A stretch of DNA of 64,000 bases from Ralstonia pickettii (GTDB lineage: Bacteria > Pseudomonadota > Gammaproteobacteria > Burkholderiales > Burkholderiaceae). The notes beneath the pieces are model-generated. The model was given only the letters and a program-made list of their open reading frames with translations, ran no database searches and was not told the origin of the DNA. The stretch spans positions 1 to 64,000 of the forward strand of contig NZ_JFZG01000038.1 in assembly GCF_000607165.1 (NCBI RefSeq), written 5' to 3'. Position numbers and translations under genes: made by a program. Positions 13,404-60,959 of this stretch are shown piece after piece. Position 1 is the first letter of the stretch, and the number at the start of each line of letters is the position of its first letter.

Positions 13404-13439
13404 GCGGTTTCCTTTCTCGTATGTAATTCATTTCGTCTA

Positions 13440-13475
13440 TTTACATGGGATAGTGCCTGCGGCATAATTCCCATG
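13440..13475 (+). promoter_or_regulatory. Promoter with inverted repeat before the KorA-like gene
   Basis: TTTACA (13440-13445), 17-bp spacer and CATAAT (13463-13468) make a good sigma70 promoter. The arms CATGGGA (13444-13450) and TCCCATG (13469-13475) frame the -10, so a dimeric regulator could bind here. It probably drives the KorA-like and H-NS-like genes. Confidence 0.65.
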
Positions 13476-13521
13476 TGATAGACGTTTTGAATTCATCTAA
13501 TAATTTGCTCAGGAGTTGCGA

Positions 13522-28132: not shown

Positions 28133-28161
28133 ATCATAATCAATGTAATTCGATATGTCTA
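28133..28161 (-). promoter_or_regulatory. TAGACA-type promoter of the lipoprotein gene
   Basis: Minus-strand TAGACA (28161-28156), 17-bp spacer, TATGAT (28138-28133). Partly matches the leading-region promoter box. GTCTATCGCA (28157-28166) recurs inverted as TGCGATAGAC at 28200-28209, the latter followed by a GGGATAC sequence but no good -10. Confidence 0.6.
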
Positions 28162-28222
28162 TCGCAACACCGATTGAATTTTTAAATCATTCCGCAGTGT
28201 GCGATAGACAATGTGGGATACG

Positions 28223-29105: not shown

Positions 29106-29306
29106 TTAGGCGTTCTGCTGGCTGAAGGCCAAGCCGTAATAGGCGTCGGCTATCCGCTGCGGCACGATTTCTCCCACCCTCTCATAGCGGCCAATTTGCG
29201 AGCGACTTAACCCCCACCGTTGGGCTAATTCCACTTGAGTGAGCCCAGCTTTCTTCCGCAGGGCCGCAGCGTCCTCGCCGTATAGAGGGCGCTTGGATTT
29301 GCTCAT
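29106..29306 (-). CDS. XRE-type helix-turn-helix regulator, 66 aa
   Basis: A compact lambda-repressor-like DNA-binding domain: LRKKAGLTQVELAQRWGLSRSQIGRYERVG is the helix-turn-helix core. No effector domain. It lies next to the series of TAGACA promoter units and could be their regulator, or act on its own promoter; the sequence does not prove either. Confidence 0.85.
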   Translation of the reverse strand: MSKSKRPLYGEDAAALRKKAGLTQVELAQRWGLSRSQIGRYERVGEIVPQRIADAYYGLAFSQQNA

Positions 29307-29407
29307 TGGCGCATCCCCTCTTCTGTCTGGTTATGTGGCGTTACCGCTGGGCGCAAGCGCTGGCGGCCCGTGGATTCTACCGACTGTCGGCCGGCATGCC
29401 ACGGTGC

Positions 29408-29676
29408 CCGCTGGTGTCCTGTGCCGGGATACGGGGTCGTGGCCGCTTGTGCGGCCCCGAGGGCTACCGCCCCGGCCCCTACCGGCACACCCGACAGTCC
29501 CCCGGACTGTCGGGCAAGGGACAGCACCAGCGGAATACGCCTGGCCGGTCATCAACGGCAGAGCTGGCTTGCAATAAGGGGGGGCTATCAGGCGCTTATG
29601 CCAATCGGTATGCCCTATCGAACAGTGAGCCGCATTAAAACAATCAATCAATTTTGAGATAGACAAAACGAGATAC
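29408..29676 (+). repeat. 269-bp repeat, copy A, with branched fold, ending in promoter box
   Basis: Nearly identical and equal in length to 31927-32195. An outer stem GCTGGTG/CACCAGC (29410-29416, 29525-29531) encloses GTGCCGG/CCGGCAC (29421-29427, 29482-29488) with an inner GGCCGC-TTGT-GCGGCC hairpin, and an 11-bp stem CCCGACAGTCC-CCC-GGACTGTCGGG (29490-29514). The repeat runs to the end of the promoter box. Such structures suit single-stranded DNA entering a recipient, e.g. as priming or ssDNA promoter sites. The bases 29307-29407 hold no gene. Confidence 0.85.
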
Positions 29677-29688
29677 ATTAACTATAAT
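29658..29688 (+). promoter_or_regulatory. Leading-region promoter P1
   Basis: Box GATAGACAAAACGAGATAC at 29658-29676. It contains -35 TAGACA (29660-29665), with TATAAT (29683-29688) 17 bp on. Drives five small genes up to the terminator at 30982. Confidence 0.88.
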
Positions 29689-29716
29689 GGTTGCATGGTT
29701 AACGAGGGGGTGAAGC

Positions 29717-29878
29717 GTGACGCGAGAAGAAGCAATGAGTGCATTTCGTGAGCTGGTACGTCAGTACGGCTTGCAATGGAATGCGAGCGTTCCTGCGGTG
29801 GCTTACGAGAAGTTGAACGAGGTCAACAAGGTTCTGACCACGGCAGATCGCCGTGAAGCGCTTGGCCTGCCAAACTGA
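29717..29878 (+). CDS. Small hypothetical protein, 53 aa (unit 1)
   Basis: GTG start after GAGGGGG. Sequence begins MTREEAMSAFRELVRQYGLQ; helical, soluble, with a conserved-looking core. First gene behind promoter P1. Position in the predicted leading region suggests an early-expressed role; function unknown. Confidence 0.6.
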   Translation: MTREEAMSAFRELVRQYGLQWNASVPAVAYEKLNEVNKVLTTADRREALGLPN

Positions 29879-29893
29879 AACAAGGGGGTGATG

Positions 29894-30292
29894 ATGGATA
29901 TCAATCTGAAGCTGGAAGTTTCCGACCAATTCCTTTGGGACGTGTTGTGCACGGCCGTAGAAGGTGGGTCCAACTATTGGGCACAGTTCAAGACGCTGGA
30001 ACGCTACGAAGGCGAGCACGGCCCGGAGCATGCACGCGTGCGCGTGACCGAGTATGGGGACGCGGATAGCGCGGTTAGCCGCAAGGAAATTGGCTTGACT
30101 GATCTGGCGGAAGGCATGCGCCGCATCATGACGCGCACCATGGACAAGCCCGAAGACCATGCGAACGTGCACAGCTCGCACAGTGGGGCGCTACTCGTCG
30201 CAGTAGTCGAGGACGACGCCGGTCAGGTGGACGGCGAGCTGGCTGACCTCATCTTGCAGGCCGCCATGTTCGGCCACATCGTCTACGGATGA
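29894..30292 (+). CDS. Hypothetical acidic protein, 132 aa (unit 1)
   Basis: Begins MDINLKLEVSDQFLWDVLCT; starts at 29888 (GTG) or 29891 are also possible, but 29894 fits the AAGGGGG best. The protein is acidic, with a likely alpha/beta fold; LLVAVVEDDAGQVDGELADL near the end. Such acidic DNA-mimic-like content is seen in some anti-restriction proteins, but no specific family is recognised. Confidence 0.6.
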   Translation: MDINLKLEVSDQFLWDVLCTAVEGGSNYWAQFKTLERYEGEHGPEHARVRVTEYGDADSAVSRKEIGLTDLAEGMRRIMTRTMDKPEDHANVHSSHSGALLVAVVEDDAGQVDGELADLILQAAMFGHIVYG

Positions 30293-30307
30293 TAGGAGGA
30301 AGCGGCG

Positions 30308-30541
30308 ATGACCAAGACGATGCAGAAGCTGCTGGACCGCCGCGATGGCCAAGTCTGTATCGCCGTGTCCGGTGCACGTGAATCGGCTGCCGCACGTGCG
30401 TTGGTCGCCGCTGGCCTTGCTATCCGGTACGACAATCAATCGAAGTTAGTGAGCGGCAAGAGCTACTACAACCACTTCCATCGCGGGTGGGCGACCGCCA
30501 AGCCGTACAGCGACATTGGCGGCGTTCTGCATTTCGCCTAA
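30308..30541 (+). CDS. Hypothetical 77-aa protein (unit 1)
   Basis: Starts MTKTMQKLLDRRDGQVCIAV with GGAGG upstream. Mixed helix/strand, with two Tyr-rich stretches. Tightly packed between its neighbours; function unknown. Confidence 0.6.
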   Translation: MTKTMQKLLDRRDGQVCIAVSGARESAAARALVAAGLAIRYDNQSKLVSGKSYYNHFHRGWATAKPYSDIGGVLHFA

Positions 30542-30571
30542 CCCGCGCTGCCGACCAACAAGGGAACGACG

Positions 30572-30778
30572 ATGGCACGCGACAACCAATACAGCCCGAA
30601 CCAAGGCGGCGCTGACATGCTGAAGTTTTGCCAAACGGCGCGCAAGGATTTGATGGCAAACATCAACCCGCTTGACAGCCTGGAATCGAAAATCGAAGCA
30701 AAGGCAAAAATCATGTCGATGGACTACAACGAGCTGCGGGCAGAGATGATCCGGATTAGCAGGACCGCGATTGCCTAA
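30572..30778 (+). CDS. Hypothetical 68-aa protein (unit 1)
   Basis: Starts MARDNQYSPNQGGADMLKFC, helical, with AAGGGA upstream. Follows 30 bp after the previous gene. Function unknown. Confidence 0.55.
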   Translation: MARDNQYSPNQGGADMLKFCQTARKDLMANINPLDSLESKIEAKAKIMSMDYNELRAEMIRISRTAIA

Positions 30779-30808
30779 CCCCCGCCACTGAACACACGAG
30801 AGACAGCA

Positions 30809-30961
30809 ATGCCCGTCTTCATCATTCGCCGCGATGGCAAGTACCTGACCGCGTGGAACACATGGACCGCTGACTGGATGGAGGCCACCGAATACACCGA
30901 CGAACAGCTCGCCAAGGCCGCAGCCGAGCGCCAAGGCGGCACGGTAGTCGTGATCGACTGA
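30809..30961 (+). CDS. Small hypothetical protein, 50 aa (unit 1)
   Basis: MPVFIIRRDGKYLTAWNTWT start with GAGAGA upstream; beta-strand N-terminus and a helix (DEQLAKAAAERQGG). Last gene of unit 1, followed by a terminator 21 bp later. Function unknown. Confidence 0.55.
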   Translation: MPVFIIRRDGKYLTAWNTWTADWMEATEYTDEQLAKAAAERQGGTVVVID

Positions 30962-30981
30962 CACCCGAGGAATGGACAGAG

Positions 30982-31018
30982 AACGCCCCTTGGCGAACGC
31001 CTAGGGGCGTTTCTCTTT
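30982..31018 (+). terminator. Terminator of unit 1
   Basis: AACGCCCC and GGGGCGTTT arms with a loop and T-rich tail; the same terminator type recurs at 31864-31900. Confidence 0.85.
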
Positions 31019-31070
31019 GCGGCAATAGCTATCGCCAATCGACAGCCATCAAATAATGCAATTGCAATGA

Positions 31071-31101
31071 GATAGACAAAACGAGATACGTGAATTATAC
31101 T
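31071..31101 (+). promoter_or_regulatory. Leading-region promoter P2
   Basis: Identical 19-bp box at 31071-31089; TAGACA, 17-bp spacer, TATACT (31096-31101). Confidence 0.88.
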
Positions 31102-31131
31102 AGTCCCATAGTGATCGAGGGAGATGAAACC

Positions 31132-31365
31132 ATGAAGCCGGAAATCAAGAACACGCGTGAGCTGACGGAAGCTACGCAGCCACGTCAAAAGCGCCACACC
31201 CTTTTCGACCGGTCGTTCGCCATCGTGGCTGAGTTTCCCGACAGTGAGGACGGCACGCGCGAAGCCAATGCCTTCATGGAAGAACACCCCGGCGCGGCTG
31301 TGCTGGAAGTGATCGGCGGTCGCGTGATACTCGCTGACAAAGCCGACAAGGGCATCGCCATTTAA
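31132..31365 (+). CDS. Hypothetical 77-aa protein (unit 2)
   Basis: Start MKPEIKNTRELTEATQPRQK with GAGGGAGA upstream. The second half (FDRSFAIVAEFPDSEDGTREANAFMEEHPGAAVLEV) reads like a small alpha/beta domain. First gene after P2. Function unknown. Confidence 0.6.
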   Translation: MKPEIKNTRELTEATQPRQKRHTLFDRSFAIVAEFPDSEDGTREANAFMEEHPGAAVLEVIGGRVILADKADKGIAI

Positions 31366-31390
31366 CGCTACTGGATGAAAGGGGATGGCG

Positions 31391-31579
31391 ATGAAAACGC
31401 CGATGACGATTCCGAGTGAGTTGCGCGAGCTGATCGCAGAGGTGAAGGCTCGCAACGCGAGCAACAGCAACGCAGTGGAGGATTTGCAAGAAGTGCTGCG
31501 CACCGATTGGGGATGGGATGTACCCCGTTGCTTGGCAAGCGATTTCATTGAATCCGCTTGTGCCACCGCTGGCAACTGA
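31391..31579 (+). CDS. Hypothetical 62-aa protein (unit 2)
   Basis: Starts at MKTPMTIPSELRELIAEV (GGGG upstream; ATG 31385 is an alternative). Helical with a Trp-Gly-Trp stretch, no recognised domain. Function unknown. Confidence 0.55.
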   Translation: MKTPMTIPSELRELIAEVKARNASNSNAVEDLQEVLRTDWGWDVPRCLASDFIESACATAGN

Positions 31580-31594
31580 GCAGAGAGGCAACCC

Positions 31595-31837
31595 GTGCTG
31601 ACAACCGAACAGGCTGCGAAGCGTCGTGCCGAATTTCTCCAAAAGCTTCAAACGTTGCTGACCGAATACAACGCGTCGATTTCGTGGTCCTGCGACCCGT
31701 GCAGCGATACGCATGGCGTCTATGGAGACGTTATAACTGTCGATGTGGATGGGCGTGAAGCGGTCCGCACTGATGAGGGCTGCGGATATTTGGACGCCGA
31801 AAACCTGAAAGCGCTTCTGACCTGGGGGGGTGCCTAG
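31595..31837 (+). CDS. Hypothetical 80-aa protein (unit 2)
   Basis: GTG start, GAGAGG upstream. Helical N-terminus, then SWSCDPCSDTHGVYGD and a strand region; the two Cys could bind metal. Function unknown. Confidence 0.6.
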   Translation: MLTTEQAAKRRAEFLQKLQTLLTEYNASISWSCDPCSDTHGVYGDVITVDVDGREAVRTDEGCGYLDAENLKALLTWGGA

Positions 31838-31863
31838 CACAACTCTGGAAAGGGATAACCATG

Positions 31864-31900
31864 ACGCCCCTTGGTGAATGCCGAGGGGCGTTTTGCGTTT
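31864..31900 (+). terminator. Terminator of unit 2
   Basis: ACGCCCC...GGGGCGTTTTGCGTTT stem-loop, closely related to the unit 1 terminator. Confidence 0.82.
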
Positions 31901-31926
31901 GGGCGATGGTTCGCGAAGGTTGGTGG

Positions 31927-32195
31927 CCGCTGGTGTCCTGTGCCGGGATACGGGGTCGTGGCCGCTTGTGCGGCCCCGAGGGCTACGGCCCCAGCCCCTA
32001 CCGGCACACCCGACAGTCCCCCGGACTGTCGGGCAAGGGACAGCACCAGCGGAATACGCCTGGCCGGTCATCAACGGCAGAGCTGGCTTGCAATAAGGGG
32101 GGTCTATCAGACGCTCATGCCAATCGGCGCACCCTATCGAACAGTGAGCGGCATTAAAACAATCAATCAATCGAGGGATAGACAAAACGAGATAC
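31927..32195 (+). repeat. 269-bp repeat, copy B
   Basis: Same length as copy A, offset 2519 bp, without gaps; all stems of the branched fold are kept. The last 19 bases are the promoter box of unit 3. Confidence 0.85.
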
Positions 32196-32207
32196 GAAAC
32201 GTATAAT
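32177..32207 (+). promoter_or_regulatory. Leading-region promoter P3
   Basis: 19-bp box at 32177-32195; TATAAT at 32202-32207. Drives the 32260 and 32702 genes. Confidence 0.88.
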
Positions 32208-32259
32208 TGTTTACATGGCGATCGAGACAGACACTGCAAACGGAAAGAGGAATCGCGTC

Positions 32260-32691
32260 ATGACCGCAGCAACCAAGATCGGAATGAAGACCATTGTTGT
32301 TACTCGTGCAGAAGGCCCGTTTGGTGCTTGCGGTCGGTCGGAAAAGTGCAGCACGTTTGAGCAAGCAAATGGTGTTCTGAGGGCATGGAGCGCGACGGCA
32401 CCAGCCAACGGCGGCTACGACAAGTGCGATTTCATGATCGAGTTTGACGACGGATTCATCTACAAGGGGCGCTACGACCTGTATCACGGCTCCGTGAAAA
32501 CTGCCGACGTAGGCGAACACGTGCGATCCCTGGCGCTGTTCTATACGGGTCGCGTCACGCCTGACCACATGACCCAGGAATCCCATCTGGCATTCCTGCG
32601 GAAAAGGGGCGCAGAAGCATGCGAGAGCTACCAGCACCTTATCGACAACTATGAAATCGGGTGCGAGGCAATCCCGGCATCGCTGCTCTGA
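32260..32691 (+). CDS. LPD25-like hypothetical protein, 143 aa (unit 3)
   Basis: Start MTAATKIGMKTIVVTRAEGP at 32260 has AAAGAGGAA upstream; the leader ATG at 32215 is at the predicted transcript start and less likely. The middle (GYDKCDFMIEFDDGFIYKGRYDLYHG) follows the pattern of a large polyvalent protein-associated domain (LPD25-like), found in mobile-element proteins. The family call is from memory and tentative. A role in early establishment is possible. Confidence 0.6.
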   Translation: MTAATKIGMKTIVVTRAEGPFGACGRSEKCSTFEQANGVLRAWSATAPANGGYDKCDFMIEFDDGFIYKGRYDLYHGSVKTADVGEHVRSLALFYTGRVTPDHMTQESHLAFLRKRGAEACESYQHLIDNYEIGCEAIPASLL

Positions 32692-32701
32692 GGGCGTGGC
32701 T

Positions 32702-32929
32702 ATGGCCTCTGCTTACTTCGCTCCCCTTGTTTTGCTCCCAACCATTATTACCGCGCCGGGGAAATATCTCACACGGAGCGGCGCGGTTGTGACGGTTGAA
32801 TCGGCCTCGCAGAAACACGATTTCCGGTGTGTTGGCGCATACCCGTGCGGGACTCGCGAGGGCTGGCATAAGAGCGGGCGCATCTTCGCTGGTTGTCTCA
32901 CTGTGAACGACATTGTTGCTGCCGCTTAG
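32702..32929 (+). CDS. Hypothetical 75-aa protein (unit 3)
   Basis: MASAYFAPLVLLPTIITAPG start; YLTRSGAVVTVESAS with W and GR later recalls small phage proteins with a strand-rich fold. Weak ribosome-binding site (GAGGGCGTGG). Function unknown. Confidence 0.5.
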   Translation: MASAYFAPLVLLPTIITAPGKYLTRSGAVVTVESASQKHDFRCVGAYPCGTREGWHKSGRIFAGCLTVNDIVAAA

Positions 32930-32959
32930 GTGGGCACCGGCCCGGCAGCGTAAAGACGT

Positions 32960-32984
32960 AGGCCCGAGAACGGGCCTTTTATTT
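32960..32984 (+). terminator. Terminator of unit 3
   Basis: AGGCCCGAGAACGGGCCTTTTATTT hairpin. Confidence 0.85.
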
Positions 32985-33044
32985 GGCGGGCAGATCGGTG
33001 GCTATCAGGTAATCAAGCTGATCGGAAAATTCAATCTAAATAGA

Positions 33045-33075
33045 GATAGACAAAACGAGATACGCAGGTTAGAAT
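33045..33075 (+). promoter_or_regulatory. Leading-region promoter P4
   Basis: Box at 33045-33063; TAGACA, 17-bp spacer, TAGAAT (33070-33075). Confidence 0.87.
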
Positions 33076-33118
33076 TATTCCCATGGTGAACGAACAAGCA
33101 CTGACAGGGGGTTACACA

Positions 33119-34108
33119 ATGAGCACCAAGTCGCAGTCGCTGAAGCAAATGGCGGAGGACAAAGGCAACGATGCTGTCTCCAAGAAGACCATCTATCAGG
33201 TCGATCCGCGAATTCTCAAGGTTGAGCCTGGGTTCAACCTGCGCATTGAGACGCCAGCGCTGAAGGAGTCCATCAATCTTCTGAAGGAGATGTACATCGC
33301 GGGCGCGGTATTTCCGCCGATCGATGTACACAAGGGCACGCAAGTCATTGACGACGGCCATCGTCGCCACGCGGCAATCATGCTGGCGATTGCGGAGGGG
33401 CACGAAGTTCGCAAGGTGGACGTTCGCGAGGTCGACGGAAATAACGTTGATCGCGTATTGCACATGCTCGGTTCCGGCGATGGTAGCCGCCCGCTTTCGA
33501 CTTTGGAAAAGGGGCTTGGCTACAAGCGGCTCCTGAAATTCGGCTGGTCTAAGCAGGATATCTGTGCGGGTCGGCATGTTTCGATCACGCACGTTGAGCA
33601 GGCGCTGACACTCGCCAACGCAAACGCCGATGTACAAGACCTTCTTGCGCTTGAGCGGGTCTCGGTAGGGGCTGCTCTCCAAGCAATCCGCGAATATGGC
33701 GATGACGCGGGCAAGCTTCTTCAAGAGCTATCCGACTCGGCGCGTGGCGTGGGCGACGAGACAAGCGACGGCCAGCCGAAGAAAGTCACGCGACGAGTGA
33801 CGAATGCCGCCCGCAATCCTGAGTCCGCGCGCCGGTTGCCAGCGAAGTTCGCAAACCGTTATGCCAAGAACGTCGGAGACATGTTTTCTGCGATGCCTGA
33901 CGAGTTGCGCGGCAAGGTTGCTCTCGCTGGCGACGACGAGACGATCCCCGTTTCTGCCCGGTATCTCAAAGAGCTGATGGAGCTGCACGCCGAAGCTGAG
34001 AAGCTTCGCGGCCCGGAGGGTGGAGCGGATGCCGAGGGCGATCCGCGCCAGCAAAGCCTCTTGGGCGATGGCAAGCCGTCCGAGACAGACGACGACGAGC
34101 AAAGCTGA
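33119..34108 (+). CDS. ParB/RepB/Spo0J-like protein (unit 4)
   Basis: 329 residues. N-terminal ParB nuclease-like domain with VIDDGHRRHAA (Gly80-His-Arg-Arg), then a helix-turn-helix region (WSKQDICAGRHVSITHVEQALTLANA) and an acidic, probably disordered C-terminus. No ParA is next to it. ParB-like proteins are common in leading regions of conjugative plasmids. It could bind DNA or regulate early genes. Confidence 0.85.
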   Translation: MSTKSQSLKQMAEDKGNDAVSKKTIYQVDPRILKVEPGFNLRIETPALKESINLLKEMYIAGAVFPPIDVHKGTQVIDDGHRRHAAIMLAIAEGHEVRKVDVREVDGNNVDRVLHMLGSGDGSRPLSTLEKGLGYKRLLKFGWSKQDICAGRHVSITHVEQALTLANANADVQDLLALERVSVGAALQAIREYGDDAGKLLQELSDSARGVGDETSDGQPKKVTRRVTNAARNPESARRLPAKFANRYAKNVGDMFSAMPDELRGKVALAGDDETIPVSARYLKELMELHAEAEKLRGPEGGADAEGDPRQQSLLGDGKPSETDDDEQS

Positions 34109-34121
34109 AAGGGGCGACGAA

Positions 34122-34439
34122 ATGGCAAGAGCAAGAGTGACGCACTCCGAAGACGCAGTGCAAATCACGTTCAAAGGCGATAAGCGCAACCCGGAACCGA
34201 GCACCGCCGTGGTTCAGTTTCCAGGCGGTCACATCGAGGTTTCGCGATGCTCAGACGGATCGTACTGGGCGCACGTGGAGGTAGTCGATCCAAAAAATAT
34301 TGTTGGATCGCGCATCGACTATGCGCCCGGCGATGCGGCCGAGTTGTGCGCAATTCCTGATGTACCGCGCGCAACCGAGATTAAGCACATTGCGGTGCGC
34401 ATTGGCAACGTCGTGCCGCACTTTGATCCGAACGCCTAA
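34122..34439 (+). CDS. Hypothetical 105-aa protein (unit 4)
   Basis: MARARVTHSEDAVQITFKGD, AAAGGGG upstream. Strand-rich with a VQFPGGHIEVSRCSDGSYWAH block; no known domain. Lies between the ParB-like gene and a secreted protein. Confidence 0.6.
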   Translation: MARARVTHSEDAVQITFKGDKRNPEPSTAVVQFPGGHIEVSRCSDGSYWAHVEVVDPKNIVGSRIDYAPGDAAELCAIPDVPRATEIKHIAVRIGNVVPHFDPNA

Positions 34440-34461
34440 CCAACCGAATACGGAAACCATC

Positions 34462-34770
34462 ATGAAATCGACTCTCTCCGCATGCGTCATTCTCCTGGCA
34501 GCTTTCGGAACGAGCGCACAGGCGTTCACGCTGGCTGCGGCTCGCCCGATCACCGTTATTACGGTCTACAGCGAACAGCGGTCTACTGATCCGCTTCGCG
34601 ATCAAGGAAAGGCTGACGCAAAGCCGCCGATCCGCATTGTCGATGGCGGCGTACGGGATGCTGGCGGCACCTGTTTCGATCTGGACGAGTCTGGAAACAT
34701 CTCCCAGGCTCCGGGGCAATGCGTGGTTCTACGTTCAGCAGAACCCGGCGAGCGCCCACCTGGCCGCTGA
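34462..34770 (+). CDS. Secreted hypothetical protein, 102 aa (unit 4)
   Basis: Signal peptide (MKSTLSACVILLAAFGTSAQ, cleaved near Ala20-21) and a polar mature part with two Cys. An exported protein in the leading region is unusual; it might act on the envelope of the new host (for example exclusion), but nothing shows this. Confidence 0.55.
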   Translation: MKSTLSACVILLAAFGTSAQAFTLAAARPITVITVYSEQRSTDPLRDQGKADAKPPIRIVDGGVRDAGGTCFDLDESGNISQAPGQCVVLRSAEPGERPPGR

Positions 34771-34822
34771 CTCCCCTGCCCTGTTCATTGCCTAACGATC
34801 AAAAACACGAGGTAAATGCACC

Positions 34823-35023
34823 ATGCCAATGACCAAACAAGATTTGCAGTGGTTCGAGCTGCGCGACAAGCTGCCACCCGCACAAAAGCAAGCCGTTGAA
34901 GCGGCGTTTCAAGCCGCGACGGATGCAGTACGTGGCGCTGGCCTGAAAGCCGACATGTCCGACGTGGCGGCCTCGCTGGAAGGCGCAATCATCCGATTTG
35001 TGCAGGAATCCAACCCTCACTGA
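34823..35023 (+). CDS. Hypothetical 66-aa protein (unit 4)
   Basis: Helical, starts MPMTKQDLQWFELRDKLPPA. CGAGGT upstream. Followed by the strong terminator 35056-35085. Function unknown. Confidence 0.55.
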   Translation: MPMTKQDLQWFELRDKLPPAQKQAVEAAFQAATDAVRGAGLKADMSDVAASLEGAIIRFVQESNPH

Positions 35024-35055
35024 ATGCGCGACCCACCCCCGGAGGCGCAACTTTG

Positions 35056-35085
35056 CCCTGGCGAAATTCTGCCAGGGTTTTTTTT
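35056..35085 (+). terminator. Terminator of unit 4
   Basis: CCCTGGCGAAATTCTGCCAGGG hairpin followed by eight T residues. Confidence 0.92.
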
Positions 35086-35095
35086 ACCATCAAGA

Positions 35096-35126
35096 GATAG
35101 ACAAAACGAGATACCTTGGGTATAGT
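35096..35126 (+). promoter_or_regulatory. Leading-region promoter P5
   Basis: Box at 35096-35114; TAGACA, 17-bp spacer, TATAGT (35121-35126). Confidence 0.87.
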
Positions 35127-35152
35127 TCTCTCACCTTTGAGGGAGCGAAGAC

Positions 35153-36004
35153 ATGGCTAAGAGAACACAGTCGGCCGGACTGGACGCCGCACAGAAAGAG
35201 TTTGTGAAGCTGGTCGAGATGAACTCGCGACGTTATCGCCGGCACGAGGTTTTCCGCGACTTTTGCGAGATGGCTGCCCTCAGCATCAGCAACTCGGTTG
35301 ACCGGAGCCAATACGAGGAACGTGAAGCGCGCTATCTGGAAATCGTTGCTCGCTATGAGCGTGAAGAAGTTGAGCGCTTCCCCGCCATGCTGAGGTGCAT
35401 TGTCGAGGCACTGAGCGCGGGCATGTGCGATTGTCTCGGGCAAGTCTTCATGGCGATGGAGCTTGGCGATCATTGGAAGGGCCAATTCTTCACACCCTAT
35501 GAGGTGTCCTACCTGATGGCGAAGATCGTCACATCCAACGTTGCGGCCGTGATCGAGAAAGAGGGATTCTTCACGCTCAATGAGCCGACAGCCGGGGCCG
35601 GTGCGATGGTGATCGCAACGGCTCACGCGATCCAAGATCAGGGAATCAACTACCAGCAGGCCATGCATGTCACCACGACGGATATTGACCTGACCGCCGT
35701 ACACATGGCCTATATCCAGCTCTCATTGCTGCACATTCCTGCAATCGTGATTCATGGCAACGCGTTGTGGCCAGAGAAGACCTGGGGCCACTGGGTGACG
35801 CCCGCGCATGTCCTGGGCATGTGGGATGTTCGGCTCAACCGGCGCGAACGCGCCGAAGGCGAGCGCAAGCCGGCCGAGGCCGCTGCTCCGGTGGCTGGGG
35901 ACGCGCCGAAGCTTGCTGCTGAACCAACTTCAATCGACGCACAACGTGCGGCGATTGTAGCGAAGCGGATCGAGAAGGCAGACCAGCTCGATCTATTCGC
36001 CTGA
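35153..36004 (+). CDS. N6-adenine methylase-like protein without the NPPY motif (unit 5)
   Basis: 283 residues of the HsdM-like fold: GQFFTPYEVS (about 110-119), SAM motif I NEPTAGAGAM (about 143-152), and a HGNALWPE block like the HGDSL segment of these enzymes. The catalytic (N/D)PP(Y/F) that should follow is absent; the sequence instead moves to a low-complexity linker. It may bind SAM or DNA without methylating, or be an anti-restriction decoy. The C-terminal LDLFA is typical of methylase-like plasmid proteins. The gene has its own promoter P5. Confidence 0.8.
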   Translation: MAKRTQSAGLDAAQKEFVKLVEMNSRRYRRHEVFRDFCEMAALSISNSVDRSQYEEREARYLEIVARYEREEVERFPAMLRCIVEALSAGMCDCLGQVFMAMELGDHWKGQFFTPYEVSYLMAKIVTSNVAAVIEKEGFFTLNEPTAGAGAMVIATAHAIQDQGINYQQAMHVTTTDIDLTAVHMAYIQLSLLHIPAIVIHGNALWPEKTWGHWVTPAHVLGMWDVRLNRRERAEGERKPAEAAAPVAGDAPKLAAEPTSIDAQRAAIVAKRIEKADQLDLFA

Positions 36005-36082
36005 TGCCGGCAAACCTTCCCGTCTCGGGGTAGGAACGGCTATCAAAGCCGCGCAAAGTTAAGGAAAATCTATCGCATTAAA

Positions 36083-36113
36083 GATAGACAAAACGAGATA
36101 CGAAAGGTATAAT
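36083..36113 (+). promoter_or_regulatory. Leading-region promoter P6
   Basis: Box at 36083-36101; TAGACA, 17-bp spacer, TATAAT (36108-36113). Confidence 0.88.
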
Positions 36114-36143
36114 TTCCACATGTCGATCGATGTGGGGAACGCA

Positions 36144-36443
36144 ATGATTTATCACCCTGAACTCGGTGAAGAGCCGGCCGAGCGCCTGTTCTACATGGAG
36201 CATAACTTCCGCAGCACGTACAGCCTCTGTTGGCTGGAAGCCAAGGACACCGAAGCGCGGGCGAAGCTGAAGGAGCTGAACATTCGCCCCGTTGCCGGCA
36301 CGGCACCGGAGCGCGGTGTGCCCGGCGAATGGATGCAAGCAACCCGCCTGGGTGTGCCCGTCTTCCACTGTCTCATTTCTAGGGATTCGAGCGACAAGCT
36401 GCGCCTTGATGATCTTGTGGCTACTCGCGTTCTTCTCGATTGA
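36144..36443 (+). CDS. Hypothetical 99-aa protein (unit 6)
   Basis: MIYHPELGEEPAERLFYMEH; start 36144 favoured by GGGGAA upstream (a leaderless start at 36120 is possible). Alpha/beta, soluble, no recognised domain. Function unknown. Confidence 0.6.
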   Translation: MIYHPELGEEPAERLFYMEHNFRSTYSLCWLEAKDTEARAKLKELNIRPVAGTAPERGVPGEWMQATRLGVPVFHCLISRDSSDKLRLDDLVATRVLLD

Positions 36444-36455
36444 GGGGCTTGTGCA

Positions 36456-36791
36456 ATGACTACCTCTCGATACCGTGCAACCGTCGATCATGTTGATGAC
36501 TGCCAACCCTCCTGCTGCGGTAACTGCGGTTGGGTCGGCGTTGCGGCTGATACCGCAGAAATTGAGGAATGTGCCTTGACTCCTGGCGACCCCTCCCCCG
36601 TTGGTCGTTGCCCGGAATGCGATTCGATTGCTTACGTGAAGATGGCACCTAGCCCCGCGTTTCATGGCGTTGCACATGTGCTGCGCGAAGGGTTGCGGTT
36701 GATGCCGCTTGGCTCAAAAGCGCGGGCGGCTTGGTTGTCGAGGGCTTCCACCGTGCTGGCCGCATTCGAACAGGAGGGGTTGAAGTCATGA
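36456..36791 (+). CDS. Zinc-ribbon hypothetical protein, 111 aa (unit 6)
   Basis: CCGNCGWVG and GRCPECDSI form a Cys-pair zinc ribbon across residues about 20-55, followed by a helical tail. Overlaps the next gene by four bases. Function unknown. Confidence 0.6.
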   Translation: MTTSRYRATVDHVDDCQPSCCGNCGWVGVAADTAEIEECALTPGDPSPVGRCPECDSIAYVKMAPSPAFHGVAHVLREGLRLMPLGSKARAAWLSRASTVLAAFEQEGLKS

Positions 36792-37045
36792 ACTTGCTCA
36801 CGGTTCTTGAATGGGCGGGGGCTGCCATGGGGTTGACTGGTGCGTTTCTGTTGGCGACGCACAGTCGCATTTCCCGTTATGGCTGGTTGTGGTTTCTCGC
36901 TGCAAACCTAGCGATGGCTGGTCTTGCTGTTGGGATCGGTCGATATGGTCTGTTGGTGCAACAGGTCGGATTCACTGCGACTAGTTTGCTGGGAATCTGG
37001 CGCGCGGGCTTTCTGCCGCGCGTTTGGAGAACGAGGGCGCGCTGA
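36788..37045 (+). CDS. Membrane protein, 85 aa (unit 6)
   Basis: Three hydrophobic segments (about residues 4-22, 31-50 and 54-72), basic C-terminus. Coupled by ATGA to the zinc-ribbon gene. Could be a small transporter-like or immunity-type membrane protein; unknown. Confidence 0.6.
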   Translation: MNLLTVLEWAGAAMGLTGAFLLATHSRISRYGWLWFLAANLAMAGLAVGIGRYGLLVQQVGFTATSLLGIWRAGFLPRVWRTRAR

Positions 37046-37097
37046 GCGGCTGCCCTACTCAGGCTGGTGATAGCGGCCAGGCTCGCAAAAGTATGAG

Positions 37098-37130
37098 CGC
37101 CCCACGGCTTGCCGTGGGGCGTTTGCATTT
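37098..37130 (+). terminator. Terminator of unit 6
   Basis: CGCCCCACGG-CTTG-CCGTGGGGCG followed by a T-rich stretch. Confidence 0.88.
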
Positions 37131-37151
37131 AACCCTGTAGTGGACGATTTT

Positions 37152-37201: not shown

Positions 37202-37300
37202 AATTCTACGCCAGCTCGCGCTAGCGCGAGCTGGCGGCCGCACCGACAAGTGGCGGCTTCCGCCGCAGAGTGGGAGCAATTCGCGGCGTGCAGGCGCGGC

Positions 37301-37416
37301 AGCTCTGGTGTGGAAATGGGGATGCGGTTGCCCACCGTCCGCCGCTGGCGGCCCGTGGACAACCGCACCGCGCCCCTGCCTCTTGCGGGCCGGTCGCTTC
37401 CCCATTTTTCGCGCGC
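37301..37416. repeat. 116-bp direct repeat, copy 1
   Basis: Repeats at 37495-37610. Contains GCGGTTG/CAACCGC and CCGCC/GGCGG arms of an imperfect hairpin (37324-37366). Confidence 0.8.
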
Positions 37417-37494
37417 CGCGAACCTGGCGCGGCGGCCGGCACCGCGCCAGGCGCTTGCGTGCAAGCGCCGCGCATTCCCGCGTGCCGGCGCAGC

Positions 37495-37610
37495 AGCTCT
37501 GGCATGGAAATGGGGGTGCGGTTGCCCACCGTCCGCCGTTGGCGGCCCGTGGACAACCGCACCGCGCCCCTGCCACTTACGGGCCGGTCGCTCCCCCATT
37601 TTTCGCGCGC
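37495..37610. repeat. 116-bp direct repeat, copy 2
   Basis: Same as copy 1 at offset 194 bp with seven substitutions and no gaps; hairpin arms conserved. Confidence 0.8.
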
Positions 37611-37948
37611 TGGGAATGCGCCAGGTCGGCCAACGCCGAAGCCCGTACCGACGCGGCCGGCCGGCGAGCGCTGTGAAAAGCTGGCTTGCAGAGAGGGGGG
37701 GTTCCTTCGCGTGCCGGCCTGGGTCTGGCGTTGATGGTGATACCCGCTACTCGGTCCCGCGAGTCGCGCTGAGTCGCGCGGCAACCGCCCGGAGTTCTGC
37801 CGGCCGCCCTACTCCTACCGATCCTGCATAGGCGCGGACACTCCTGACGCTAGTTGCAGTAACGGAGGGTAAAAAAAGGGGCATTACAGTGTCATTAACT
37901 GTAATACCCGGACATTATTCGCATGATGTTGGGGATTTTCCCCCGCAA

Positions 37949-38410
37949 TCACTGCTCAGGGGCTTTGTTGATGGCCGTTTGCAGCTTGGCTTGGGTGGCT
38001 GCGTCGAGTGTCGCGAACGCAGCCTTTACCGCGCGGCCCACTTTCGCATCATCGCGATCCCTGTTGAGTACGTACATTCCCGCGACCACAACGAGACTGG
38101 CCGCCAAGCCGGCTAAGACACCGACGATGGCGAGTGTTGCACGGGGGATTTGTGGGGCGGGAGCGGCCAAGGCAACAGGTTCAGGTGCTGCGGTTGCTGC
38201 CTTTGCGATCCGGGCAGCGTCCTGGGCCATCCGCGCGCTATCTTGAACCGTGCGCGCGGTCTCCTTCAATTGCTTTTCTACCGATTGCACGTCGTTCATG
38301 AGGGCTTCCGCCCTATCGAAAGTCTCATGCAACTCGCCCAGGAGAATCCGCATAGCGGCATCGCGCCGCGTGTTGGGGCCGCCCTCCTGCTGCTTGGCCG
38401 CTTCGCTCAT
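37949..38410 (-). CDS. stbC: StbC-like membrane protein
   Basis: 153 residues: helical N-terminal part with coiled-coil character (about 20-75), Ala/Pro linker and a transmembrane segment (about 92-113), then a short C-terminal domain. Third gene of a three-gene operon with a ParA-like ATPase and a DNA-binding protein, matching the order of R388 stbABC next to oriT. Starts by an ATGA overlap with stbB. Identity is from context more than sequence. Confidence 0.65.
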   Translation of the reverse strand: MSEAAKQQEGGPNTRRDAAMRILLGELHETFDRAEALMNDVQSVEKQLKETARTVQDSARMAQDAARIAKAATAAPEPVALAAPAPQIPRATLAIVGVLAGLAASLVVVAGMYVLNRDRDDAKVGRAVKAAFATLDAATQAKLQTAINKAPEQ

Positions 38411-39168
38411 TTCTTGGCCTTGCCGAAGAGCTGTTCGGTTGCGGTCGAAAGGTTGGCGTACGCGTGAACGGCCAAGTCGTGGTCCGCTTGGTGCTCGATG
38501 GCCTGTTCAACCATTTCGAAGTCGCCCGCAGCCTTAGCCTCTGCTCGCTTGGCCTTCCAGTCCGTCTGATCTTCCGCCAGCTCGCGAATGTTCTTGCGGC
38601 GGACCAAATCAAACACCTCGTTTTGCCTGATAACGATGTGCGGTTCATAAGTGGCCTTACTCTTGCCGTCCGTCATGGCGTAGCCGCTAATCTGCGCATA
38701 AACCTGTTCGACCGCCAGCAAACCGCTTTCTCCGCCGTCATACATGTTGTAGACAACGCGGATTTTGCTGGCCGGAATCCCCAGCTTGGAAAGCCATTCG
38801 ATAGTCGCGATGGTGTCTTTCTGCTGCTTATCGGCCGGAACGGTTGGCACGATAATCAGGTCAAGCTCACCGATAGCGCTCTTATAGCGCGTCAGTTCCG
38901 ACATGAAGCCGACAACGTTCGATGCGCCAACATCAATAATCACGTCATCGTGCAGCATGAGCTGTTTGAAAATCTCGCGAAACTCGGACGCCGAGAATTC
39001 TTCAGCCTGAACACTTTCGACCTCGTTGGCGACAGAGGCGTTATGCATTTCGACCGAAATGAATTTCGCCTTCGGGCGACTTGCCGCAAGCCAGTTGACG
39101 GAGAGCGTGGTTTTGCCAACGTTCCCGCTCAGGTTGATGACGGCGATTTTCAGGTCTTTGGTGGTCAT
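38407..39168 (-). CDS. stbB: StbB/ParA-like ATPase
   Basis: 253 residues. Walker-type NLSGNVGKTTLSVNW near the N-terminus (Lys19, but without the leading Lys of a standard ParA deviant Walker motif), VIIDVGASN (Walker B region) and LIIVPTVPA. R388 StbB acts with StbA in plasmid stability and is needed for conjugation positioning. Placement beside oriT supports this. Overlaps its neighbours on both sides by four bases. Confidence 0.8.
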   Translation of the reverse strand: MTTKDLKIAVINLSGNVGKTTLSVNWLAASRPKAKFISVEMHNASVANEVESVQAEEFSASEFREIFKQLMLHDDVIIDVGASNVVGFMSELTRYKSAIGELDLIIVPTVPADKQQKDTIATIEWLSKLGIPASKIRVVYNMYDGGESGLLAVEQVYAQISGYAMTDGKSKATYEPHIVIRQNEVFDLVRRKNIRELAEDQTDWKAKRAEAKAAGDFEMVEQAIEHQADHDLAVHAYANLSTATEQLFGKAKK

Positions 39169-39665
39169 GTCGGTTTCCTATTCTGACGGGCGATGTTTCG
39201 ATAATCAGTTTGATAAGCCTTTTGTGCTTCCCTCAAGGCGGTACGAACTTCTAAGGCGTCCCCCTCACTTCCCTGTGACGGCGTTACCTCGGCTTGCTTT
39301 GGTTCATGTGAACCACTTCGGTTTGGTTCATGTGAACCACTACTAATTGGATCAGGTGAACCACTCTTCAACCCGCCTGGCCCGCCAAGCTGCTGCGGTT
39401 TGATCGATCCAGCCGTGACGGTCGCAGCCCGTTCCCTAGCGCGCTTGCGCGCCCGCTTCAGGGTCTGCATGTAGACCGGCAGCGTCATCTCTAGGCCGGC
39501 CGCTTGCAGAGTCTCTTGAATCTTCGCGTGCGTGTGGCCGAGTGCGTTGGCTTCGTCGATGAGCGGCAACAAGCGCTCCAGCAGGACCGCTTTAGATCGC
39601 AACTGTTGAGCGACCAGCGTGCGGGCCATGGCTTCTATGTTGGCGAGTTCGTCTGTGGATTCCAT
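39165..39665 (-). CDS. stbA: StbA-like DNA-binding protein
   Basis: 166 residues starting MESTDELANIEAMARTL; the frame is open to a TTG start at 39701. Helical N-terminal part with a basic RARKRARERAA stretch (about 83-93), then a repeated, likely disordered tail (GSPDP, GSHEPN, GSHEPK). The tail is encoded by three copies of the palindrome GGTTCATGTGAACC, so the coding region doubles as a possible binding array. First gene of the operon; direct repeats lie just upstream. Confidence 0.65.
   Translation of the reverse strand: MESTDELANIEAMARTLVAQQLRSKAVLLERLLPLIDEANALGHTHAKIQETLQAAGLEMTLPVYMQTLKRARKRARERAATVTAGSIKPQQLGGPGGLKSGSPDPISSGSHEPNRSGSHEPKQAEVTPSQGSEGDALEVRTALREAQKAYQTDYRNIARQNRKPT
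39301..39362. repeat. Three 14-bp palindromic sites inside stbA, 24-bp spacing
   Basis: GGTTCATGTGAACC at 39301-39314 and 39325-39338, and GGATCAGGTGAACC at 39349-39362. Spacing of 24 bp keeps the reading frame. Same motif as 37152-37201. Confidence 0.75.
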
Positions 39666-39748
39666 GGGCTTGATAGTAACTTGATGGGTACTTAAAGGCA
39701 ACTAAAAGGGAACACTTTGCGTAGCGATTTTGCTGAAAAGAAACAGAA

Positions 39749-39940: not shown

Positions 39941-39997
39941 ACACACCATACGCACCTCTTGCGAGGTGCTGTGAAGCCAAGCTCCACTTGGCTTCAC
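39941..39997 (-). other. Candidate oriT with nic site
   Basis: On the minus strand the hairpin GCACCTC-GCAA-GAGGTGC (39969-39952) is followed by GTATGGTGTGTGACC. R388 (MOBF) oriT has GCGCACC-GAAA-GGTGC followed by GTATTG^TCTATAG, so nic is predicted between 39946 and 39945. A second perfect hairpin GTGAAGCCAAG/CTTGGCTTCAC spans 39971-39997. The site lies just before the trwA-like gene, as in R388. The minus strand would be the transferred strand and 37-29 kb the leading region. Confidence 0.7.
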
Positions 39998-40091: not shown

Positions 40092-40475
40092 ATGAGGGTG
40101 GTCAGCGTCAGACTGAAGGACGAGGAAGAGGCGTTTATGCGCCGGCAGATGGAAATTGCAGGGGAAGCCGACCTTGGCCCTCACATCAAGCGGGTCTATT
40201 TCGGCAACCTGAACCCCGGTGAAGGCTTGCTATCTGAGCTGCGGCGCAACTCAGAAATGGTTCTATCGATGCTTTCAGATATGAGGCGAAATGGTTCCAG
40301 CTCCGGCGACGCCGAGGAACAAAAAGAGCACGACCGGGATACAGAACTGCGGCTGCTTGCCGCTATCTTTTTGATGCTTCACATGTCGCTCGGGAAGGAC
40401 GCTCGCCTGGTCATTGACCGCTACGTCAGCTCGAAGGCGGTGGAAGACTTTTTGAAGGCTGGGGGTGGACTATGA
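40092..40475 (+). CDS. trwA: TrwA-like ribbon-helix-helix oriT accessory protein
   Basis: 127 residues: MRVVSVRLKDEEEAFMRRQM is a ribbon-helix-helix start, followed by helical oligomerisation segments. TrwA binds oriT, stimulates the relaxase and represses its own operon. First gene after oriT; two TTTGTCATACA repeats just upstream may be its operator. Ends in an overlap with trwB. Confidence 0.78.
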   Translation: MRVVSVRLKDEEEAFMRRQMEIAGEADLGPHIKRVYFGNLNPGEGLLSELRRNSEMVLSMLSDMRRNGSSSGDAEEQKEHDRDTELRLLAAIFLMLHMSLGKDARLVIDRYVSSKAVEDFLKAGGGL

Positions 40476-42106
40476 GCGCAGGTTCGCGGCGGTATGACGA
40501 CCGACACAAGGGGTGGCTGTTCCTGATGGTGCTGGGGATGACGGTGGGGGCGTGGTTTTGGGCGGCCAATCGGACGTACACCCTCCCCCGAGGTCAATAT
40601 GCGAAAGCACTTTATTATGCGCTGCTCTCGACGCCGCACACTCCCCTACTTTGGGTTCCGGCACTTATTGCCTTTCTGTACGGGTTCGTTATTTTCGCGG
40701 TAATCGCCTTCTACACCCGCAGCGGTTTTGATGGCGCGGATTTTATGATGTTTTTGCGCGGCACTCGCATGGTTAGTGCTGCGCAGTTGGCGGATATGAC
40801 GCGTAGTTGGTTTACTGAACAGCTTCGCTTGGGTGGCATTCCGATGCCAACGAAGGTGGAAGGGCAGCATGCTAGCGCGATCGGTTCCACCGGTTCCGGT
40901 AAATCGCAGGCAATCGCAGATTATATTGAATCTGCCCTGGCGAGGAATCTACCCAAATGGTGGAGACCAAATTCAAAGCCGGATCGAATTATCTGTGTTG
41001 ACCCTAACGGTCAGTTTATGGAGAAATTCTACAGGCCGGGCGACAAAATCCTCAACCCGTTTGACAAGCGTTCGGTTTCTTGGGGTATTTTCAACGAAAT
41101 TCGCGTTCCATTCGACGTGGAGCAATTTTCAGTCAGCGTTATTCCAAAAAGTCCGTCGACGGAGCAGGAGCAGTGGAACGCTATGGCACGGACGATTACC
41201 GCCGAGGTTATGTTGAAGCTGTGGCGGTTGCAACGGGGCACCACGGACGAGTTGGTCTACTGGCTGGCCATCGCGCCGAACGAACAGCTACAGGAAATGC
41301 TCGCGGACACGGCGGCGGCCGGGATGTTCCACGGCGCGGAGGAAACCCTTGGCAGCGTACGGACTGTGCTGACGCGCTACATCACTCCACACAAGTATCT
41401 GTCAGCCATGGAGAAGGCTGCCAACGACTTTGTTCTGCGGGATTGGATTGATACCGGCACCGGCAACCTTTGGATTACATGGCGGGAAGATCAGCTCCAC
41501 GCGTTGAAACCGCTCATCTCGTGCATGTTTGATGTGGCTTGCGCCGCTGCCTTGTCGACGCCAATCGACAAGCACCGCCCTGCCCTTCATCTGGTCGTTG
41601 ACGAACTGGACTCGTTGGAGAAGCTGAATTACCTCATTCCTGCCGCGACCAAGGGTCGTAAGCACAAGCTGTACATCCTTGCCGGGTTCCAATCGTACGC
41701 GCAGCTCAACTCAACCAACGGCAAGGACGATGCCCTGACCCTGCGGAACAGTCTGCGCAGCACGCTCAGCTTGGGTGTGGCGGAAATGGATACCTACACG
41801 TCTGAAGAAATTTCGAGGGGCCTGGGCGAGCACGAGGTTATCCGCAAACGCGAGACCAGCGGCAGGAGTGCCAGCACGTCCTTTGACAAGGAAAAGGAAC
41901 GGGTGGTGATGGCATCGCAGCTCCACACCCTGCCCGACCTCACCGGCTACCTCAAGTATTCGGGCAACTTCCCTATTTCGCGCGTGACGATGCTCTACAA
42001 GAACCGCAAGAGCGTTATCGAGCCCCTTGTTATGGCGGAGAACCGTTGGACAACCGCCCCTGACTTCAACTCGGTGTCTACTCTCAATTTTGCGAGCGAC
42101 GAGTAA
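40472..42106 (+). CDS. trwB: TrwB/VirD4-type coupling protein
   Basis: 544 residues. Two N-terminal transmembrane segments (about 13-30 and 58-80), then Walker A GSTGSGKS (about 138-145), Walker B LVVDELDS (about 372-379), and AGFQSYAQLN. It brings the relaxosome to the secretion channel and pumps DNA. Overlaps trwA and trwC at both ends. Confidence 0.95.
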   Translation: MSAGSRRYDDRHKGWLFLMVLGMTVGAWFWAANRTYTLPRGQYAKALYYALLSTPHTPLLWVPALIAFLYGFVIFAVIAFYTRSGFDGADFMMFLRGTRMVSAAQLADMTRSWFTEQLRLGGIPMPTKVEGQHASAIGSTGSGKSQAIADYIESALARNLPKWWRPNSKPDRIICVDPNGQFMEKFYRPGDKILNPFDKRSVSWGIFNEIRVPFDVEQFSVSVIPKSPSTEQEQWNAMARTITAEVMLKLWRLQRGTTDELVYWLAIAPNEQLQEMLADTAAAGMFHGAEETLGSVRTVLTRYITPHKYLSAMEKAANDFVLRDWIDTGTGNLWITWREDQLHALKPLISCMFDVACAAALSTPIDKHRPALHLVVDELDSLEKLNYLIPAATKGRKHKLYILAGFQSYAQLNSTNGKDDALTLRNSLRSTLSLGVAEMDTYTSEEISRGLGEHEVIRKRETSGRSASTSFDKEKERVVMASQLHTLPDLTGYLKYSGNFPISRVTMLYKNRKSVIEPLVMAENRWTTAPDFNSVSTLNFASDE

Positions 42107-60863: not shown

Positions 60864-60930
60864 GCCTGCGTGTATCTCTTATCGTCTATCGTGAATTCTG
60901 TGCGATTGATAAATAATATCTCTCTATGTA

Positions 60931-60959
60931 TAGACATAACGAGATACGGAGTGTATATT
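60931..60959 (+). promoter_or_regulatory. Leading-region-type promoter P7
   Basis: TAGACATAACGAGATAC contains -35 TAGACA (60931-60936), 17-bp spacer, TATATT (60954-60959). One base differs from the P1-P6 box. Outside the leading region. Confidence 0.82.

Follow-up and report, generated by a model that had tools for sequence, protein, structure and literature searches.

Shared operator-promoter boxes and a folded, possibly G4-like initiation element in the predicted leading region of an R388-type plasmid of Ralstonia pickettii

Results

The stretch of DNA analysed here, called the window, comprises 64,000 nucleotides (nt) of contig NZ_JFZG01000038.1 of Ralstonia pickettii (assembly GCF_000607165.1). 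As listed in Table 1, six plus-strand transcription units each carry the 19-bp box GATAGACAAAACGAGATAC, and two of them are preceded by a folded element that resembles a single-strand initiation (ssi) site. An earlier note on this DNA had described the six units as sharing one promoter box and as a candidate leading-region island of anti-defence or establishment cassettes; the folded element upstream of the boxes was not in that note. The box was found unchanged at all six positions, while 100 shuffles of the sequence gave no match at up to three mismatches. As the note had stated, every box is followed by a -10 hexamer 17 bp after TAGACA, with five or six of the six letters matching, and a generic promoter scan recovered all six box promoters. 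All six boxes agree over 11 bp at the start of the 17-bp spacer; a plain promoter does not need this identity, which thus points to a bound protein. The initial transcribed bases past the -10 (CATGGTGATCGAG-like; 29690–29710 in the window and the equivalent positions) were also similar in most units and plasmids, exceeding what a promoter needs.

The exact boxes span only 29.6–36.1 kb of the 88,957-bp contig and are confined to these six places across the whole 5.75-Mb genome. Two more sites with two to three mismatches are located at 60929 (plus strand) and 60872 (minus strand), and a ninth place, with three mismatches, lies on another contig. Beyond the window, the contig is free of boxes even with 4 of the 19 positions allowed to differ. 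Searches with the exact box plus -10 pattern gave no match in a collection of genome contigs and none in a collection of viral contigs. Intrinsic terminators had been claimed for five of the six units. The terminator scan placed plus-strand sites at the ends of units 1, 2, 3 and 4 (30987, 31863, 32960 and 35055, respectively), the end of unit 6 has a GC hairpin near 37098 that was seen in the sequence and is not in the scan list, and no terminator was found for unit 5. Terminator-like sites numbered seven in total, not above the shuffles (mean 7.5).

Judged from its Stb, TrwB/TrwC and MOBF genes, the contig is an R388-type plasmid. To the right of the island are StbA- and StbB-like genes on the minus strand, a short gap, and then a gene in the TrwA position, TrwB and TrwC on the plus strand; the gene order in R388 is the mirror image. 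Among the matches listed, the plasmids nearest in StbB were four Burkholderia contaminans records (three at 80.5% and one at 64.5%), Paraburkholderia phytofirmans pBPHYT01 (65.6%) and Janthinobacterium pJAB465 (53.8%). The three B. contaminans records that were opened share many protein accessions, so the B. contaminans records were counted as one lineage. In what follows, stretches L010 and L011 belong to the B. contaminans plasmid, L018 and L022 to pBPHYT01, L034 to R388, and L053 is the rest of the contig.

The nic-like flank GGTGCGTAT stands behind a similar hairpin and runs toward stbA on the minus strand in the window, in L010 and in L018, and the flank in R388 (L034:16160) also runs toward stbA. 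In pJAB465, whose map is reversed, GCGTAT was found on the plus strand in a similar hairpin setting. The order stbABC–oriT–trwABC with stb entering first is found in the window when the direction is taken from the nic-like site. Because of this direction, and because the stb genes of R388 enter first, as described in passages of PMC3098194, the minus strand would be the one transferred, the island would follow stb, and its plus-strand genes would be templated by the transferred strand. The view that the island is a leading region, with the minus strand transferred island side first, is thus supported by the NCBIfam match of StbB, the Pfam matches of TrwB and TrwC, and the R388-like minus-strand nic hairpin pointing toward stbA. 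The boxes are not placed at random without relation to oriT, a finding that the note had named as counting against its reading: all six exact boxes lie in the leading region, and the three inverted pairs elsewhere stand upstream of particular genes.

Table 1. Features of the window. Positions are those of the window; operator pairs, elements and blocks are predictions.
Feature	Position	Strand	Remarks
Operator-promoter box, unit 1	29658..29676	+	Exact, -10 TATAAT; genes 29717-30961
Operator-promoter box, unit 2	31071..31089	+	Exact, -10 TATACT; genes 31132-31837
Operator-promoter box, unit 3	32177..32195	+	Exact, -10 TATAAT; genes 32260-32929
Operator-promoter box, unit 4	33045..33063	+	Exact, -10 TAGAAT; ParB-like gene 33119-34108, then three small genes to 35023
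Operator-promoter box, unit 5	35096..35114	+	Exact, -10 TATAGT; N6-methylase-like gene 35153-36004
Operator-promoter box, unit 6	36083..36101	+	Exact, -10 TATAAT; genes 36120-37045
Folded ssi-like element, copy 1	29402..29540	+	117 nt before box 1; alignments A4/A5, covariation; cmsearch 147 bits
Folded ssi-like element, copy 2	31921..32059	+	117 nt before box 3; covariation; cmsearch 148 bits
Degenerate primase-start block GGCTTGCAATAAGGGGGG, copy 1	29566..29583	+	4 mismatches to consensus; 25 nt from element
Degenerate primase-start block, copy 2	32085..32102	+	4 mismatches to consensus
Inverted operator pair	13423..13495	13423 -, 13477 +	2 and 3 of 13 mismatches; before ArdK/KorA-like gene
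Inverted operator pair	28145..28221		Minus copy with -10-like TATGAT before gene 26948-28075 (-); box starts 28145/28203
Inverted operator pair	60872..60947		Before DUF6573 gene 60997-61401
Two-domain ArdK/KorA(TrfB)-like protein	13646..14206	+	Pfam KORA, 2 stretches; similar to R388 ArdK by BLAST, pairwise E 7e-7
Small XRE-type helix-turn-helix (HTH) protein, alternative regulator	29106..29306	-	Pfam; 78% identical over 55 aa in B. contaminans plasmid
Second folded repeat (element II), copy 1	37306..37428	+	Alignment A6; blastn matches in 49 Xanthomonas plasmid records
Element II, copy 2	37500..37622	+	GGCTTGCAGAGAGGGGGGG 60 nt after copy
StbB	38407..39168	-	NCBIfam 198.8 bits, just under cutoff 200; 80% identical in B. 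contaminans; best matches include records annotated StbB
StbA-like	39165..39701	-	Position; 55% identical in B. contaminans
TrwB coupling protein and TrwC (MOBF) relaxase	40472..45435	+	Pfam, NCBIfam
nic-like hairpin flank GGTGCGTAT	39948..39956	-	Runs toward stbA; compared with R388 L034:16160

The box is one form of a more general operator, GATAGAC-N4-CGA-N2-TAC, that three plasmid lineages share. Outside the island of the window, an inverted operator copy starts 54–58 bp upstream in most cases, mostly without a -10. Because of these inverted partners, what had been described as one promoter box is better seen as an operator overlapping the -35. Box sites at up to three mismatches numbered 10 in L010 and 3 in L011. 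Inverted box pairs 50–60 bp apart were found three times in the window, eight in L010, twice in L011, nine in L018 and not at all in L022 and L019, and their mean in 20 shuffles of the window was 0.0. Single operator matches at up to 3 of 13 mismatches numbered 26 in the window versus 7.65 in shuffles; they are scattered, and several must be chance. At L011:16973–17013 in the B. contaminans plasmid the operator boxes stand tail-to-tail, unlike the usual head-out pairs.

A box and its inverted partner could also be taken for a single-stranded promoter hairpin like Frpo, as partners 54–58 bp upstream are common in L010 and L018 and the boxes lie in a leading region whose transferred strand serves as template. 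The variable positions argue against this. Among 19 distinct pairs, 40 of 114 variable positions matched between box and partner, compared with a shuffled mean of 43.1; without covariation the pair behaves as two protein sites, and the hairpin was rejected on this ground. The partner is degenerate or missing in the six window units, the -10 lies outside the predicted stem, partners occur outside the leading region too, and the tail-to-tail boxes at L011:16973 fit an operator better. We regard a Frpo-like hairpin as highly improbable.

The operator reading brings in a candidate repressor. In R388, promoters of the leading region are repressed by ArdK, which acts on an operator at the -35, as described in parts of PMC9723621 and PMC3937220; R388 ArdK aligns at two places with each of the ArdK/KorA-like proteins of the window and of pBPHYT01. 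An operator pair stands upstream of the gene for the two-domain protein in all three lineages: directly upstream of 13646 in the window, directly upstream of 45159 in pBPHYT01 (L022, 25-bp spacing), and with one gene in between at 30575 in the B. contaminans plasmid (L011). On sequence grounds, the protein encoded at 13646 is the probable repressor of the box. The XRE gene at 29106 has no box pair of its own and was ranked second for that reason. pJAB465 has neither a box within 3 of 19 mismatches nor, in the stretch tested, an inverted pair, and it lacks an ArdK/KorA-like gene at E<1e-3. The gene at 26948–28075 (minus strand), of unknown function, has relatives in both box-bearing plasmids and a more distant one in pJAB465.

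Units 1 and 3 are preceded by a 290-bp repeat, and the two window blocks are 93% identical. Its first half (~140 nt) is kept in both box-bearing relatives, where L010 has six copies next to its 8 box pairs and L018 six next to its 9, and the gap from element to box is 117–123 nt in all 14 copies that have a box. The minus-strand DNA fold of 29402–29700 had a z of -4.48. An alignment of 14 copies (A4), from which 2 of 16 copies (B8012 and P8765) were left out since their upstream half is non-homologous, gave 44 pairs, 8 of them with double changes. When 12 chosen sources were scanned with the covariance model built from these 14 copies, it detected 26 copies at E<1e-5. In the 22 distinct rows 98.0% of the cells were paired and both sides had changed in 30 of the 44 pairs, which none of 500 shuffles came near, and pairing fell below 50% when pair partners were shifted by one column. 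The 22-row alignment was fitted to the model, which favours structure; the unfitted 14-copy MAFFT alignment gave the same pattern.

With one doubtful pair excluded (22-141, T-G in 19 of 22 cells), the 899 cells consisted of 878 Watson-Crick, 5 G-T, 8 A-C and 8 other combinations; with this pair included, G-T rose to 24 of 921. Structured RNAs are normally rich in G-U pairs. As wobble is nearly absent in both senses, the pairing was read as that of DNA, which suggests that the conserved element is folded DNA. A small RNA or antisense regulator would likewise have a strong conserved structure with covariation. This reading is opposed by the scarcity of wobble on either strand (5 and 8 cells), by the place of the unit 3 element between a terminator and the next promoter, by the copies near rep genes described below, and by Rfam, which gave no match at gathering thresholds on the window, L010 and L018. 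We hold a function as RNA to be highly improbable.

All leading-region copies have the same orientation toward oriT, two in the window, six in the B. contaminans plasmid, six in pBPHYT01 and four in pJAB465. In pJAB465, three copies stand before the genes for ssb, DUF932 and ParB/Srx, and the remaining copy is 20 kb away from oriT. At E<1, no element was found in the rest of these plasmids (stretches L011, L021, L022 and L052). In two further genomes ssb lies downstream of the element, after one small frame in L042 and directly in L043. The element is infrequent, having been found in 5 of 299 members of the family, 5 of 399 of the order, 1 of 369 of the class and 2 of 398 of the phylum, counts that include the own genome each time and come from overlapping draws with differing models and cutoffs. 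The whole module also occurs as single copies near replication genes on plasmids of B. glumae (~1.6 kb), P. aromaticivorans (~0.45 kb) and X. axonopodis (~0.5 kb). Sites of the ssi type are known near replication genes, for example in RSF1010 (cited in PMC7690428, in the part consulted).

Some further candidates were rejected. A coding role of the upstream block was dismissed because, by eye, no frame was open and alike across lineages among six translated copies, which show single-base indels. As a carrier of the element, R388 was not accepted: its best match is weak at 22 bits (E 0.002 when R388 is taken by itself, 0.017 when it is one of 8 sources), and many of the pairs were marked non-standard. 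Covariance-model matches in L047 (inside a zot-like gene) and L048 are without a start block and probably due to chance. Candidate matches of the model remain in L045, in L046 and at L053:16933, the last of them weak (17.8 bits, E 0.026) and at the level of weak reverse-strand matches.

In the copies that have it, a start block, GGYTTTGCAGRARGGRGG, begins 24–27 nt past the element. Among 30 copies, mismatches to the start-block consensus were two or fewer in 15, four to five in 9, and six or more in 6; the first group consists of six B. contaminans copies, six of pBPHYT01 and three of small plasmids. The plasmid consensus was compared with all positions of phage G4 and matched best at 3988–4005, with two mismatches. 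This segment overlies the annotated complementary-strand origin (3998), and the RNA primer in the record is 3970–3997. In phage alpha3 the best match fell in the G–H gap, where the record annotates no origin. The match score was reached by 0 of 200 shuffles for G4 and 1 of 200 for alpha3. According to passages of PMC6783573, primer synthesis at the G4 origin begins at the T of CTG, next to a folded structure, and ~30 nt on each side are free of single-stranded DNA-binding protein (SSB). The CTG of the plasmids is on the transferred strand, so a primer would grow in the plus direction and reach the box promoter. At best, element and block would work like a G4-type ssi site, short of full membership in that class.

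The six units contain 18 open frames, in agreement with the roughly 18 small genes counted previously. PHROGs was run on 10 of the 18 proteins, and PADLOC on 9 of the 18 plus the DUF6573 protein. Only two island genes fall into families with a named function. The ParB-like protein is clear in PHROGs (phrog_1033, 2.9e-45) and weak in Pfam, where HTH_ParB was below cutoff. The methylase-like call is sustained by Pfam N6_Mtase (3.4e-6, above cutoff); this protein is 68% identical to a Diaphorobacter plasmid protein, its best PHROG is phrog_5696, a family of unknown function, and it lacks the N/D/S-PP-Y/F/W motif, so it may not methylate DNA. The product of 29891–30292 matches phrog_2355, also of unknown function. 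PADLOC assigned the methylase to generic methyltransferase models and gave a marginal JetA match (0.0042) for 34823–35023; among the proteins covered it gave nothing specific, and the proposed anti-defence function of the island is conjectural. The leading region of pJAB465 carries ssb and DUF932. In the B. contaminans plasmid ZCC, the ParB-like region (L010:2795–3754) is annotated in two pieces and forms one frame in two other records of the same plasmid (L016 and L020).

Comparison of the 18 island genes with the B. contaminans plasmid at E<0.1 gave a relative for just one, the ParB-like gene. Judged by this comparison, gene content turns over between the two plasmids while the control DNA persists. 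The Diaphorobacter plasmid (L012) has the methylase relative and no boxes. Such turnover with boxes and blocks retained, together with the 93% identity of the two window blocks, is what would be expected if the upstream blocks were recombination points for gene cassette swaps. However, no recombinase or cassette boundary was identified, ordinary repeat recombination would suffice, and this role would be compatible with priming. As a separate explanation it appears quite improbable to us.

Beyond the island, element II is non-coding and has 42 predicted pairs, 6 with double changes (8 sequences). It was found twice in L010, four times in L018 and once in L021, and it lies between parA and repA in the single Xanthomonas plasmid viewed. 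It is possibly another single-strand initiation type. Palindrome repeats of the TTGGTTCATGTGAACCA type occur at 37149–37208, beside the stb operon, and at 39298–39369, inside the StbA-like gene, and are perhaps StbA binding sites like the stbDRs of R388.

Discussion

We lean slightly toward the explanation that the leading region is run by two linked cis-elements, an ArdK/KorA-type operator-promoter and a G4-like ssi site. The ArdK/KorA-like repressor (13646) would bind the box, which covers the -35 of every promoter. Once the plasmid is established the units would be shut off, and after entry into a new cell they would be expressed for a short time until repressor builds up, as with R388 ArdK. 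On the incoming minus strand the element would fold and the start block would offer a start for DnaG primase; extension of the primer in the plus direction would then cross the box promoter and the genes that follow, making the stretch double-stranded and transcribable at once. The operator regulon, the leading-region position and strand, the covarying fold, the fixed spacing and the match of the relatives to the G4 origin are seen in sequence comparisons; the identity of the repressor, the use of primase and the order of events after entry are inferences.

Several observations weigh against this explanation. The element is present at only units 1 and 3 of the six. Both window start blocks have four mismatches and read TTG for CTG, and the four pJAB465 copies have 5–8 start-block mismatches. 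The fold sits 3' of the CTG on the transferred strand, the opposite side from G4, where the stem-loops are 5' of the CTG on the template and the CTG is 3 nt from stem-loop I. In the plasmids the last pair of the fold is ~40 nt from the CTG (7 unpaired model positions, 24–27 nt, and 7 nt into the block), which exceeds the ~30-nt SSB-free zone. No start-block match at up to three mismatches was found in R100 80–94 kb, which includes repA. The XRE protein encoded at 29106 tracks the presence of the boxes just as closely as the ArdK-like protein.

One alternative is an ordinary ArdK-type operator regulon, in which the folded blocks are duplicated or selfish repeats with no priming role. Four of the six window units have no block, the blocks within one plasmid are alike, as after duplication, and the window start block is degenerate. 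Against this, the compensatory changes across lineages need selection on pairing, place and orientation are fixed in four leading regions, single copies are found near replication genes of other plasmids, and the start block matches G4. An operator regulon without priming is in our judgement unlikely.

The explanation by two linked elements can be carried further, and we do so tentatively, giving it less than an even chance. In R388-type plasmids of Burkholderiales, primase start elements of a new class may occur in arrays, each copy 117–123 bp before an operator-promoter. Second-strand priming itself would switch on the first genes, one unit at a time ('prime to express'), and so take the role of Frpo-type single-strand promoters, and the two-domain ArdK-like repressor would turn them off.

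These findings bear on the question of how plasmids without a recognised Frpo make the second strand and express protective genes on entry. Two boxes at a fixed distance behind an ssi-like element suggest how such plasmids could switch on their first genes at arrival. A covarying DNA element with a primase-like start block before leading-region promoters allows a direct test in another plasmid group, and with the covariance model Burkholderiales can be searched for leading regions and for establishment genes not yet known.

Among known systems, the Frpo/ssi sites of F and ColIb-P9 have been proposed to let genes be expressed early and the second strand be started (PMC11541004, PMC7690428 and PMC7736820, each in part). 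According to sections of a 2020 review, the role of Frpo in vivo in F was still to be shown (PMC7690428); the portion seen of a 2024 paper cites later work showing early transcription from single-stranded DNA and reports that 6,006 of 21,907 candidate elements have sites homologous to Frpo (PMC11541004). As in F and ColIb-P9, the element described here is a folded single-strand element before establishment genes, in a leading region and on the transferred strand. Frpo differs in that its -35 and -10 lie in the hairpin and RNA polymerase is used, whereas here a GC-rich fold is followed by a separate downstream double-strand promoter. The covariance model gave no match at E up to 10 against F 45–70 kb, a comparison that did not include known Frpo sequences singly.

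With the G4 origin, the element shares the start block of the relatives (GGCTTTGCAG-A-GG), the CTG on the template strand and conserved folded DNA nearby. The plasmid fold is larger and branched (44 pairs), whereas G4 has three stem-loops; the plasmid element is repeated in the leading region at a fixed distance from an operator-promoter, and the CTG reads TTG in the window. No G4-type priming site in a leading region was found in titles and abstract openings of the open-licence literature, a scope outside which much of the ssi literature of 1980–2000 lies.

The closest parallel for the boxes is the ArdK/StbA network of R388, in which several leading-region promoters likewise share an operator touching the -35 and the repressor, of the KorA family, represses itself (PMC9723621 and PMC3937220, as far as these passages go). 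Here, in contrast, there are two KORA domains per chain, the operator is non-palindromic and often has an inverted partner, and the DUF6573 gene and the repressor gene belong to the box regulon as well.

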